From Bacteroidota bacterium (GTDB taxonomy: Bacteria > Bacteroidota > Bacteroidia > Palsa-965): a stretch of 37,021 nucleotides of DNA. The position numbers were made by a program, and so were the translations under genes. Shown here in pieces: positions 4,095-9,119 of this stretch (the first letter of the stretch is position 1; every line of letters starts with the position of its first letter). The notes under the pieces were generated by a model. It did no database searches. It worked only from the letters and a program-made list of their open reading frames with translations, and was not told where the DNA came from. The DNA is taken from contig PLXK01000225.1 in assembly GCA_003151415.1 (NCBI GenBank), positions 18,236 to 55,256 of the forward strand. The letters are read 5' to 3'.

Positions 4095-4826
4095 ATGAAC
4101 CATCTGGAAGATTTTCCGACAACAGCGCCCAATGGCATAGAAAAAAAGTTTGCCGAGAACGAAACCCTCCGGTACAAGAAACAGCTTTTCAATCTTCAAA
4201 ATATACTCTTCGCAGAACAAAAACACAGTGTGCTGATCATCCTTCAGGGGATGGATGCGGCCGGTAAGGACGGAACAATCCGGCATGTTTTTTCAAGCAT
4301 GAATCCCATGGGAGTCAACATCAAGGCTTTCAAAATTCCCTCATCTGAAGAAAAGACGCATGATTTTTTGTGGAGAATACATCCCCACGCCCCGGCAACA
4401 GGAATGATAGAAATCTTCAACCGCTCCCACTACGAAGACATCCTCGTTCCATCTGTACACAAAACCATTTCCCGAAAAGGACTTGACAGCCGCTACGATT
4501 CCATCAACCATTTCGAGCAGCATCTGCGTGCCTCGGGTACGGTCATCCTGAAATTTTTTCTTCATATTTCAGAAGAAGAACAGGTGCTTCGCCTGAAAGA
4601 AAGACTCAACATTCCCCATAAAAAATGGAAATATGACCCTGCCGACAGCACCGAATTTTCTCACAGACAGGCTTACCTGAAAACCTATGAACGGATTTTT
4701 GAGCGCTGCGGAACCAAACAGCCCTGGTTCATTGTTCCTGCCGATCAGAAATGGTATAGAAATTTCTTTATTGCCCGGCAGGTCAGAAATACACTGAAGG
4801 CGCTCAAAATGAAATACCCCTCATGA
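4095..4826 (+). CDS. ppk2: Polyphosphate kinase 2 family protein (PPK2)
   Basis: Single-domain PPK2 of 243 residues. PPK2 enzymes move phosphate between polyphosphate and nucleotides, usually phosphorylating NMP or NDP at the expense of polyphosphate. The Walker A loop is GMDAAGKDG (residues 52-60), the Walker B/lid region is IFNRSHYEDIL (107-117), and the C-terminal half has the family's KFFLHISEEEQ and PWFIVPADQKWYRN segments. Class III members, which can take AMP up to ATP, share this short form and the HYED lid sequence, but class is inferred, not shown. A 37-base gap to the DUF748 gene suggests co-transcription. The 245-base spacer upstream has a weak promoter-like TCACTTTG at 4014-4021 (one mismatch to TAnnTTTG). 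Confidence 0.92.
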   Translation: MNHLEDFPTTAPNGIEKKFAENETLRYKKQLFNLQNILFAEQKHSVLIILQGMDAAGKDGTIRHVFSSMNPMGVNIKAFKIPSSEEKTHDFLWRIHPHAPATGMIEIFNRSHYEDILVPSVHKTISRKGLDSRYDSINHFEQHLRASGTVILKFFLHISEEEQVLRLKERLNIPHKKWKYDPADSTEFSHRQAYLKTYERIFERCGTKQPWFIVPADQKWYRNFFIARQVRNTLKALKMKYPS

Positions 4827-4863
4827 TGTTATTCCTGAGCGCCCATAAATTAATTTCAGTCAA

Positions 4864-7137
4864 ATGAAGAGTTTGTTTCTCCGCATTAAAAACAGGTTTC
4901 TAAGAATAACGGCCATTCTTCTGGTTAGTGTTACCGCACTTGTCATTGCCGTGATCATTTTCATTTCGCCCATTGCCAAATACCTCATCGAAAGATACAG
5001 CGAAGAATATACAGGCCGGAAAATGGAAATGAGCTGGCTGTATGTCAATCCCTTTACCGGACGTTTTCATGCCTATGGCTTTATCATTCATGAAAAGAAA
5101 AGCAAAAGCAATTTCATCTCTGTTGGCGATTGCTCGTTCAACATTTCCCTGCTTAAATTGCGTTCCAACAGCATTGATGTTTCTTCCATCACCCTCGACC
5201 ACCTCTGGATCAACATCGTTGAAAATAAATCGCAATTCAATTGGGACGGTTTTTTCAACAGCGATTCCACAAAAGCCAAACCGGCATCAAAAAAGGCCAA
5301 AGCGTGGGCCTTCTCGTTCAGGGACATCCGACTGTTGAACAGCGAGGTGGTTTACAACGAAACATCCATACCTGTACATTACAAGGCCACGAAACTGAAT
5401 GTGGAATGTGCAGCCATTCAATCAGACCTGGCCGCATCGGCATTTAAATACGATTTCACCTTCCAGGAAAAAAGCGGCAACGTCAGCGGATTGTTCAAAA
5501 TGAATTTCAAAAATAACGACTATGACCTGAAAACGGTCATGAAAGATTTTGACATGAAAACGCTTGACCAGTATCTCCGGGAAATGACCACCTATGGTTA
5601 TTTCTCCGCCATGCTGAATACCGACATTGATGCCAAAGGCAATTTCAGCAATGCGAAAAACCTCATTGCCACCGGCAAGCTGGCCCTCACCGATTTTCAT
5701 TTCGGCAAAAGTGCCAGTGAAGACTATCTGAGTTTCACCAAACTGGCATTCGATGTGGATACCCTGAGTCCGATGAACAGCAAGTATCTGTTTCGCTCGG
5801 TGTTTCTGGACAGCGCCTACGTGAAGTACCAGCTCTATGATTCGCTCGATAATTTTACACGAATGATCGGTTCCAAGGGCGAACAGGTCTCCACGGCCTA
5901 TACAGACCATGCGCGGGAAAACATCGTCTTCCAGATTGCTCATTACATCGCATTGGTGGCCGAAGACCTTATTCACAGTCAGTACCGGGCCGACGACTTC
6001 AAAATATCCAATGCCAAAGCCCTTTATGAAGATTATTCGCTCACACAAAAATTCGCCGTATCGGTGAGCCCACTCAATATCACTGCAGAGCATGTAGACA
6101 CACGGGCCAAACGCACCGATGTAACATTGCACACCAAACTCAACCCGTTTGGTGATCTGGACATCAAACTCAATGTCAATCCGCTGGATTTCGGAGATTT
6201 CGTTCTCAGTTACAACATCGGTCATGTTCCCGTACCCCTGTTTAACCCCTATTCTGTTTATTATACATCTTATCCATTCGACAAAGGCACGCTGGCTTTG
6301 AACGGCACCTGGGTTGTGAAAGACAAACAAATCGGCAGCAGCAATCATTTGCAGGTCGCAAATGCAACTCTGGCCACAAAGGTGAAAAAAGATGACACTA
6401 AAAAATTTCCCATACGCGTCGCCCTGTTTTTCGTACGGGATGTAGACCGCGAGATTGATCTGACCATACCCATTACAGGAAACCTGAACAACCCCAAATA
6501 CCATCTCCGCTCAGCCATCATTCAGGTGATCAGGAACCTTTTTGTCAAGCCTCCCTCTTTCCCTGTGCTCAAAGTCAAATCCGTTCTGGCTATTGAAAAC
6601 AAAAACTATGATCTTGTTGAGTGGCCCCTGATGAGCTCAAAAATGAATTTTATTCATGAAGCCCAATTGCGCAAGATAAGCCGGTACCTTTTCTTCCATC
6701 CCAAAGAAAGGATCACTGTCATTCCCTGTTATTTCGAATCACGGGAAAAAGAAGCCCTGTTGTTCTTTGAAGCAAAAAAGAGATTTTTTTGTCTTCAAAA
6801 TCACAAACCCGAAAGCCTGTTTAGCGGAAAAGACTCTGCTGAAACAAACCGACTGTCCATAAAAAACCGGGCTTTTGTGCATTATCTCAATCTCCAGAAT
6901 AACGCTTCATCAGAATTCACAACGCAAGGGAAGTGCCTGCTTCTTATCGGACAGGCAAAAGTGAACGAAGACTATCTCCGTCTGAACAACGAAAGAAAAC
7001 GATATCTGGAAAGCTATTTCAAAGAACACAACGAACCCGAACATTTAACTTTTGGGAAAACCGTCTCTGAAATTCCTGCTTCCGGATTTTCTCATTACCG
7101 TCTTTATTATTCCATTCCGGAGGAGGATAAGAAGTAA
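4864..7137 (+). CDS. DUF748 domain-containing (AsmA-like) envelope protein
   Basis: A 757-residue protein with one N-terminal membrane segment (about residues 12-38) followed by a long, beta-rich region expected in the periplasm. The stretch around residues 470-560 (LNGTWVVKDKQIGS, then DLTIPITGNLNNPKY) is the characteristic DUF748 core, and the 590-660 segment has the family's terminal part that resembles OmpA/Pal-like folds. DUF748 proteins are AsmA-related and are thought to bridge the periplasm, possibly in lipid transport; that role is family knowledge and not tested here. Adjacent to PPK2 with a short gap. No frameshift or truncation seen. Confidence 0.82.
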   Translation: MKSLFLRIKNRFLRITAILLVSVTALVIAVIIFISPIAKYLIERYSEEYTGRKMEMSWLYVNPFTGRFHAYGFIIHEKKSKSNFISVGDCSFNISLLKLRSNSIDVSSITLDHLWINIVENKSQFNWDGFFNSDSTKAKPASKKAKAWAFSFRDIRLLNSEVVYNETSIPVHYKATKLNVECAAIQSDLAASAFKYDFTFQEKSGNVSGLFKMNFKNNDYDLKTVMKDFDMKTLDQYLREMTTYGYFSAMLNTDIDAKGNFSNAKNLIATGKLALTDFHFGKSASEDYLSFTKLAFDVDTLSPMNSKYLFRSVFLDSAYVKYQLYDSLDNFTRMIGSKGEQVSTAYTDHARENIVFQIAHYIALVAEDLIHSQYRADDFKISNAKALYEDYSLTQKFAVSVSPLNITAEHVDTRAKRTDVTLHTKLNPFGDLDIKLNVNPLDFGDFVLSYNIGHVPVPLFNPYSVYYTSYPFDKGTLALNGTWVVKDKQIGSSNHLQVANATLATKVKKDDTKKFPIRVALFFVRDVDREIDLTIPITGNLNNPKYHLRSAIIQVIRNLFVKPPSFPVLKVKSVLAIENKNYDLVEWPLMSSKMNFIHEAQLRKISRYLFFHPKERITVIPCYFESREKEALLFFEAKKRFFCLQNHKPESLFSGKDSAETNRLSIKNRAFVHYLNLQNNASSEFTTQGKCLLLIGQAKVNEDYLRLNNERKRYLESYFKEHNEPEHLTFGKTVSEIPASGFSHYRLYYSIPEEDKK

Positions 7138-7820: not shown

Positions 7821-8558
7821 ATGAAAGCCCTCTTACCCCTTTTACTTGGTCTTCTTCACTGCTTTCCGATCGTCGCACAAAAAGTGATGCCTCTCTCCAT
7901 TTCCCGGCTTGTAAACAACTTCTATATATACACCACCTGTCAGCCGGTTAACGGGGAGCCTTTTCCGTCCAACAGCATGTATGTTGTCACCAGCGCTGGA
8001 GTCATCCTCATCGACACGCCCTGGGATGAAAATCAGACAAAACCCTTGCTCGATTCCATATGGAAAAGACATGCCCAAAAGGTCGTTCTCTGCGTGGTCA
8101 CCCATTTTCATGACGACCGCACCGCAGGCCTGGATATACTGAAAGAAAACGGAGTGACTACCTACTCTTCGTCTCAGAGCAAAGTGCTGGGCATGGAAAG
8201 ATCAGACAAGCTGGCCATGCATTGTTTTTTAAAAGACACGACGTTTATAACCGGCAACATTTCCTTTGAAACCTTTTATCCTGGAGAAGGGCATACAAAA
8301 GACAATCTGGTTATTTGGTTTCCGGAACAGAAAATACTATACGGCGGCTGTCTGGTCAAAAGCAGCGAAACAAAGAGCCTGGGAAATACGGCCGATGCCA
8401 ATCTGAAAGCATGGCCGGGAACAATCGGACGCCTCATACAGAAATACCCCCATGCCAGGTATGTCATTCCGGGGCATCAGGGCTGGAAAAACAAACGCGC
8501 TTTGAAACACACCTTACACCTTTTGAAACGTTCCGGAAAATACTATTTTTATCATTGA
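7821..8558 (+). CDS. Subclass B1 metallo-beta-lactamase
   Basis: A 245-residue periplasmic zinc hydrolase with a Sec signal peptide ending near VAQ (residues 18-20). All subclass B1 zinc ligands are present: Zn1 site His95, His97 (THFHDDRTAG) and His158 (GEGHTKDN); Zn2 site Asp99, Cys177 (YGGCLVKS) and His219 (VIPGHQGW). Lys180, three residues after the Cys, corresponds to Lys224, which contacts the beta-lactam carboxylate, and SLGNTADAN (187-194) matches the Asn233 region. In these blocks it resembles the BlaB/IND/CcrA group. Length equals that of known B1 enzymes. Expected activity is hydrolysis of penicillins, cephalosporins and carbapenems. LLHC in the signal peptide is not a lipobox because the residue before Cys is His. 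No mobile-element sequence is nearby, suggesting an intrinsic gene. DUF1697 follows after 18 bases. Confidence 0.9.
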   Translation: MKALLPLLLGLLHCFPIVAQKVMPLSISRLVNNFYIYTTCQPVNGEPFPSNSMYVVTSAGVILIDTPWDENQTKPLLDSIWKRHAQKVVLCVVTHFHDDRTAGLDILKENGVTTYSSSQSKVLGMERSDKLAMHCFLKDTTFITGNISFETFYPGEGHTKDNLVIWFPEQKILYGGCLVKSSETKSLGNTADANLKAWPGTIGRLIQKYPHARYVIPGHQGWKNKRALKHTLHLLKRSGKYYFYH

Positions 8559-8576
8559 ACCTTTACATTCTATACG

Positions 8577-9119
8577 ATGAGCAGATACATTGCCTTTTTA
8601 CGCGGAATTAATGTCGGCGGGAATAACATTATAAAAATGGATGCTTTGAAAAAAATGTTCCTGTCTTTCGGCCTGAAGGAAGTCAAAACATATATCCAGA
8701 GCGGAAATGTCATTTTTGAAAGCGCCGAATCAAATTCCGTCAAACTCAGAAAAAGCATTGAAAAAAAACTCGGTCAGGCGCTTGGCTATGAGGTGGCTGT
8801 CATACTCAGAACACAGGCAGAAATGGAGGTTCTGGTGAAACTGGATCCTTTCAAGGCATTCAAGCCCAATGCGGAAGAAAAAATGTATGTTGTTTTACTT
8901 TGTGAAGAACCTCAGAACAAACCCAAAATTCCGCTTTTGTCGGCCAAAGAAGATGTAGAAGTTTTTCAGATGAGCAAGCTGGATGCGCTTTGTATATCGA
9001 GGAAGAAAAATGGCAATTTCGGCTTCCCCAATGCCCTCATCGAGAAAGAAATGAAGGTGGCAGCCACAACCCGCAATTGGAATACAATCATTAAAATTCT
9101 TGCACTGGCTCAAATCTGA
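8577..9119 (+). CDS. DUF1697 domain-containing protein
   Basis: A 180-residue cytoplasmic protein whose opening residues RYIAFLRGINVGGNN and the following TYIQSGNVIFES are diagnostic of DUF1697. The C-terminal end (ATTRNWNTIIKIL) also fits, so the gene is full length. The family is widespread, has a ferredoxin-like alpha/beta fold and no established biochemical role. It starts 18 bases after the beta-lactamase stop and is probably read from the same message, although DUF1697 genes occur in many unrelated contexts, so functional coupling should not be assumed. Confidence 0.9.
   Translation: MSRYIAFLRGINVGGNNIIKMDALKKMFLSFGLKEVKTYIQSGNVIFESAESNSVKLRKSIEKKLGQALGYEVAVILRTQAEMEVLVKLDPFKAFKPNAEEKMYVVLLCEEPQNKPKIPLLSAKEDVEVFQMSKLDALCISRKKNGNFGFPNALIEKEMKVAATTRNWNTIIKILALAQI

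Follow-up and report, generated by a model that had tools for sequence, protein, structure and literature searches.

A subclass B1 metallo-beta-lactamase gene of the B1-4 type, from a lineage without a name, in a metagenome-assembled Bacteroidota genome

Results

The window, that is, the whole stretch of 37,021 nucleotides analysed here, contains an intact open reading frame for a B1 metallo-beta-lactamase, which starts with ATG, ends with TGA and codes for 245 amino acids. The gene, its active-site codons and its downstream neighbour are located as follows.

7821..8558, plus strand: subclass B1 metallo-beta-lactamase gene, group B1-4 type, 245 aa
7821..7880, plus strand: putative Sec signal peptide, residues 1-20, cleavage at about VA/Q or AQ/K, no lipobox (read from the sequence)
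8103..8120, plus strand: HFHDDR motif with His95 and His97 (Zn1 ligands), Asp99 (Zn2 ligand) and Arg100 (residue check and alignment)
8292..8294, plus strand: His158 codon (H196 in BBL numbering), Zn1 ligand (residue check and alignment)
8349..8360, plus strand: CLVK, with Cys177 (C221, Zn2 ligand) and Lys180 (K224) (residue check and alignment)
8385..8387, plus strand: Asn189 codon (N233 in BBL numbering) (residue check and alignment)
8475..8477, plus strand: His219 codon (H263 in BBL numbering), Zn2 ligand (residue check and alignment)
8577..9119, plus strand: DUF1697 gene, 18 bp downstream of the B1 gene (ORF list, Pfam)

A previous sequence-only reading had named eight active-site residues (His95, His97, Asp99, His158, Cys177, Lys180, Asn189 and His219), and each was found at the claimed position. 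They correspond to H116, H118, D120, H196, C221, K224, N233 and H263 in the BBL numbering, which was assigned from the established B1 numbering and an alignment to BcII, BlaB, VIM, IMP and NDM. All six zinc ligands of B1 enzymes (H116, H118 and H196; D120, C221 and H263) are present in the window protein. In these enzymes, K224 binds the substrate carboxylate. The six ligands and K224 are conserved without exception across 106 aligned relatives of the B1-4 type, which substantiates the earlier claim of an intact active site. The Asn233 column holds Asn in 67 relatives, Tyr in 30 and Phe in 9. Where columns are at least 85% conserved, the window protein differs only by a T to S (120) and an I to L (163) change, both conservative.

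The N-terminus (MKALLPLLLGLLHCFPIVA/QK, the slash marking the putative cut) resembles a signal peptide when read by eye. This agrees with the signal proposed earlier and makes export of the protein likely. The residue preceding Cys14 is a His, and hence there is no lipobox. Residues 1-20 have low confidence in the AlphaFold2 model.

The protein scores 257.2 bits against the NCBI curated equivalog model for subclass B1 (NF033088; cut-off 200, E 1e-76). The nearest named-family model is that of BlaB/IND/MUS (NF012146), at 257.6 bits for a cut-off of 270, and the CAM model (NF033895) gives 246.8 bits for a cut-off of 535. Among the best 25 of 55 NCBIfam models, no named-family cut-off was reached. 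The best PDB sequence match is BlaB-1. The AlphaFold2 model, built from an alignment of 56 sequences, has a mean pLDDT of 92.3 and shows the alpha-beta/beta-alpha MBL fold of B1 structures. In a Foldseek search of the PDB, BlaB (1m2x) ranked first, with an rmsd of 1.0 A and a TM-score on target of 0.97, followed by other B1 enzymes.

We placed the protein in a maximum-likelihood tree of 115 rows. It falls in a clade of 104 rows that also holds BlaB-1 and CAM-2 (bootstrap 100 / aLRT 99, the bootstrap of this tree being not fully settled). BcII lies just outside this clade, and the mobile IMP, GIM, VIM and NDM enzymes are more distant. The branch of the window protein is long (0.62), and the tree gives it no clear nearest neighbours inside the clade. 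A grouping with non-lactamase MBL-fold hydrolases, which would have contradicted the sequence-only reading, failed when tested. Altogether, the NF033088 score, the zinc ligands, the tree placement and the predicted fold bear out the assignment to class B1.

A scan of GTDB r220 contigs retained 80 loci at 45-61% identity to the window protein. Nearly all of them belong to Bacteroidota, Chlorobiota and Ignavibacteriota, plus one Acidobacteriota locus (L131) that passes the CAM model cut-off. The closest sequence found in these contigs is from a Flavobacteriales MAG (61% in the matched segment). The closest named enzyme found is CAM-2 (46-47%), and the closest on plasmids is GIM-1 (36%), all plasmid matches being below 60%. 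Within the phylum, 50 of 396 sampled genomes carry a relative (E <= 1e-30), 33 of them in the class of the host. Some of the genomes show further arrangements. In one (G265:C22:86710-87350), the B1 gene is split across two overlapping frames, which represents either a frameshifted copy or an assembly error. Two others carry two B1 genes each: the pair in G221:C1 (4431712 and 3172022) shares 39% and 31% identity with the window protein, and in G102:C3 (305359 and 284686) the second is short (a 196-aa frame).

The B1 gene lies upstream of the hem cluster, in a region of variable content. A search of the sequence preceding the gene for Bacteroidota-type promoter patterns gave none, promoter and terminator patterns occurring at chance level. 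The DUF1697 gene is possibly co-transcribed with the B1 gene. We considered it as a functional partner and rejected it; it is probably none, because it does not adjoin the B1 genes of the 80 related loci. The ORFs of the 63-kb contig, the window proteins that were compared with Pfam and a tRNA scan of the window revealed no transposase, integrase or tRNA. Thus, the earlier statement that no mobile sequence lies nearby holds for an ORF reading of the entire contig. We also looked for carriage by phages and plasmids. Phage records gave no match and none was confirmed in IMG/VR, and no plasmid was found to carry this stretch. E. coli genomes gave no match at the DNA level.

The host genome is a MAG, 84.5% complete and in 268 contigs, and its order consists of a single family with 12 species in our sample. 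None of the three congener genomes examined (98, 59 and 62% complete, two of them thus incomplete) contains the B1 gene. In a sister genus, two genomes instead have a CHM/BMHC-like B1 gene that is 28-30% identical to the window protein (L003/L005 in G004:C15, and L004/L006 in G002:C63). In an empty-site comparison, the genes around the lactamase proved to be in a different order in congeners. The hem cluster is collinear, yet the content upstream of hemA is wholly different in one congener (G008), so that no clean empty site emerged.

All four genomes of the genus examined conserve another MBL-fold protein (G000:C250:7866-8393 in the host, and L008, L009 and L010), which has B1-model scores of 74-94 bits and resembles SoxH-related hydrolases. 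These proteins were rejected as B1 lactamases, since their scores are under the cut-off and Asp replaces Cys221. The genome of the window also contains a separate, intact class D beta-lactamase (G000:C72:6833-7606; L191:1441-2244, plus strand), with 269 bits on NF012161 (cut-off 250) and a lipobox-like N-terminus.

Two of the related loci, each from a MAG, encode an in-frame fusion in which a class D beta-lactamase forms the N-terminal half and a subclass B1 enzyme the C-terminal half.

4182-5639, plus strand: class D-B1 fusion L077, single 486-aa ORF (DLGT01000129.1, Saprospiraceae UBA7687)
4185-5642, plus strand: class D-B1 fusion L099, single 486-aa ORF (JAHEYX010000058.1, Chitinophagales)

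In L077 and L099, respectively, the class D halves pass NF012161 with 286 and 267 bits (cut-off 250), and the B1 halves pass NF033088 with 256 and 248 bits (cut-off 200). The serine motifs and the zinc ligands were found by eye. The two proteins are 71% identical and their joint is identical in place; the presence of the same joint in two MAGs at this identity makes an assembly error less likely. The class D half of L077 is 60% identical to the class D enzyme of the window's genome. No such fusion was found among the 396 sampled genomes of the phylum. Our literature search, of partial coverage and thus compatible with an earlier description, returned only class C-class D fusions, of which LRA-13 is the example (PMC5967600). 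The class D-B1 fusion is potentially more novel than the B1 gene of the window.

Discussion

In this study, we characterized a beta-lactamase gene from an uncultured Bacteroidota lineage. We consider it highly probable that it codes for an exported, two-zinc subclass B1 enzyme of the B1-4 group that hydrolyses beta-lactams, and that it is an accessory gene of chromosomal type. By analogy with BlaB, BcII and CAM, Zn1 would be held by His95, His97 and His158, and Zn2 by Asp99, Cys177 and His219. Together, the zincs would activate a bridging hydroxide for attack on the beta-lactam carbonyl, while Lys180 and Asn189 would position the substrate. The expected outcome is hydrolysis of penicillins, cephalosporins and carbapenems in the periplasm. 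Export, zinc occupancy, substrate range and expression are inferred; carbapenem hydrolysis by the window protein is likely.

The main alternative is that the protein has the B1 fold but hydrolyses carbapenems poorly, or does not act on clinical beta-lactams, and has another natural role, for instance one related to the cell wall or to natural beta-lactams. There is a precedent for such inactivity: out of 21 predicted B1 enzymes expressed in E. coli, 3 showed no activity in the Carba NP test; however, all three were B1-3 enzymes (PMC5637372). FIA-1, G37 and G58, which are all of the B1-4 genes tested in that study, each hydrolysed imipenem (PMC5637372). The B1-4 group has its hosts in Bacteroidetes and Firmicutes. 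It is dominated by Bacteroidota, and the window protein appears from its sequence to belong here. Activity is therefore likely, because the three B1-4 members tested were active and the failures were confined to B1-3. Moreover, the active site is full and the protein is nested with characterised B1 enzymes, so that we regard this alternative as very unlikely.

A second alternative is that the gene comes from another organism and was placed in the MAG by mis-binning. The number of contigs in this MAG and the congeners without the gene would fit such an error. On the other hand, HemA of the contig is 74-78% identical to its congener counterparts, compared with 56-63% for other genera, and PPK2 is 63-65% identical to that of congeners; both are closest to the congeners among the genomes of the family. 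The order of the hem cluster is common to the host and two congeners. The GC content of the gene (0.469) is also close to that of the window (0.458). Since HemA is nearest to that of congeners and the hem order is that of two of them, the contig is correctly binned, which supports the Bacteroidota host proposed earlier and leaves mis-binning highly improbable. The weakest alternative, a non-lactamase MBL-fold hydrolase mistaken for a B1 enzyme, could appeal to the many other activities spanned by Pfam Lactamase_B and to the B1-like protein of the same genome with just 74 bits, but with 257 bits for a cut-off of 200, Cys221 and Lys224 in place, the position in the tree and top fold matches that are all B1 lactamases, its probability is practically negligible.

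The idea that the gene is an intrinsic resistance reservoir stands in part. The contig is chromosome-like and correctly binned, with native composition. However, the gene is missing in three congeners and the sister genus has another B1 lineage, which indicates an accessory gene rather than a fixed trait. The differing B1 lineages within the family imply that B1 genes were gained or lost there. Any transfer of the gene of the window would be old or unmarked, given its native composition and the fact that the 63-kb contig showed no mobile element.

Families of B1 enzymes are defined by a rule of 70% amino-acid identity, and Bacteroidota is the phylum that most often carries B1 genes (22.4% of genomes) (PMC5637372). 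The sequence-only reading had suggested that an identity well below that of the named families would mark a new family. By the 70% rule, and judged on identity within the collections searched (best 61%; CAM-2 46-47%), the window protein would represent a new B1 family. The kind of enzyme is well known, very diverse and common in the phylum, and the window copy is a lineage without a name. Dozens of comparable B1 families have already been described. The gene is one further lineage among the many environmental B1 carbapenemases of Bacteroidota, and its sequence could inform surveillance databases, while the overall picture is unchanged. That this unnamed B1-4 family, accessory in an uncultured Bacteroidia order, also has an unusual substrate profile seems rather unlikely.

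One comparison is with CAM-2, the enzyme of the Acidobacteriota locus L131, from a Pyrinomonadaceae MAG (JAJQRF010000001.1). CAM-2 encoded on this contig confers imipenem and meropenem resistance on E. coli BL21 (PMC9241868). It shares with the window protein the clade, the ligands and the Lys and Asn residues. However, the window protein is far below 70% identity to CAM-2 and under the CAM cut-off. The BlaB/IND/MUS enzymes provide the best family-model score and the best solved structure and belong to the same clade, with 39% identity over 209 aa, but BlaB-1 has Tyr at position 233 where the window protein has Asn. BcII of Bacillus cereus shares the B1 ligands at 40% identity and a fold rmsd of 1.3-1.4 A; unlike the window protein, it is not placed by the tree within the Bacteroidota clade of B1-4 enzymes. 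The CHM/BMHC-like enzymes of the sister genus pass the subclass B1 model (265 and 270 bits) and their hosts are in the same bacterial family, but they have Cys at the R121 position and form a separate branch of the tree. Finally, GIM-1, IMP, VIM and NDM have the B1 mechanism and ligands in common with the window protein at 29-37% identity, and occur on plasmids, whereas the gene of the window does not.
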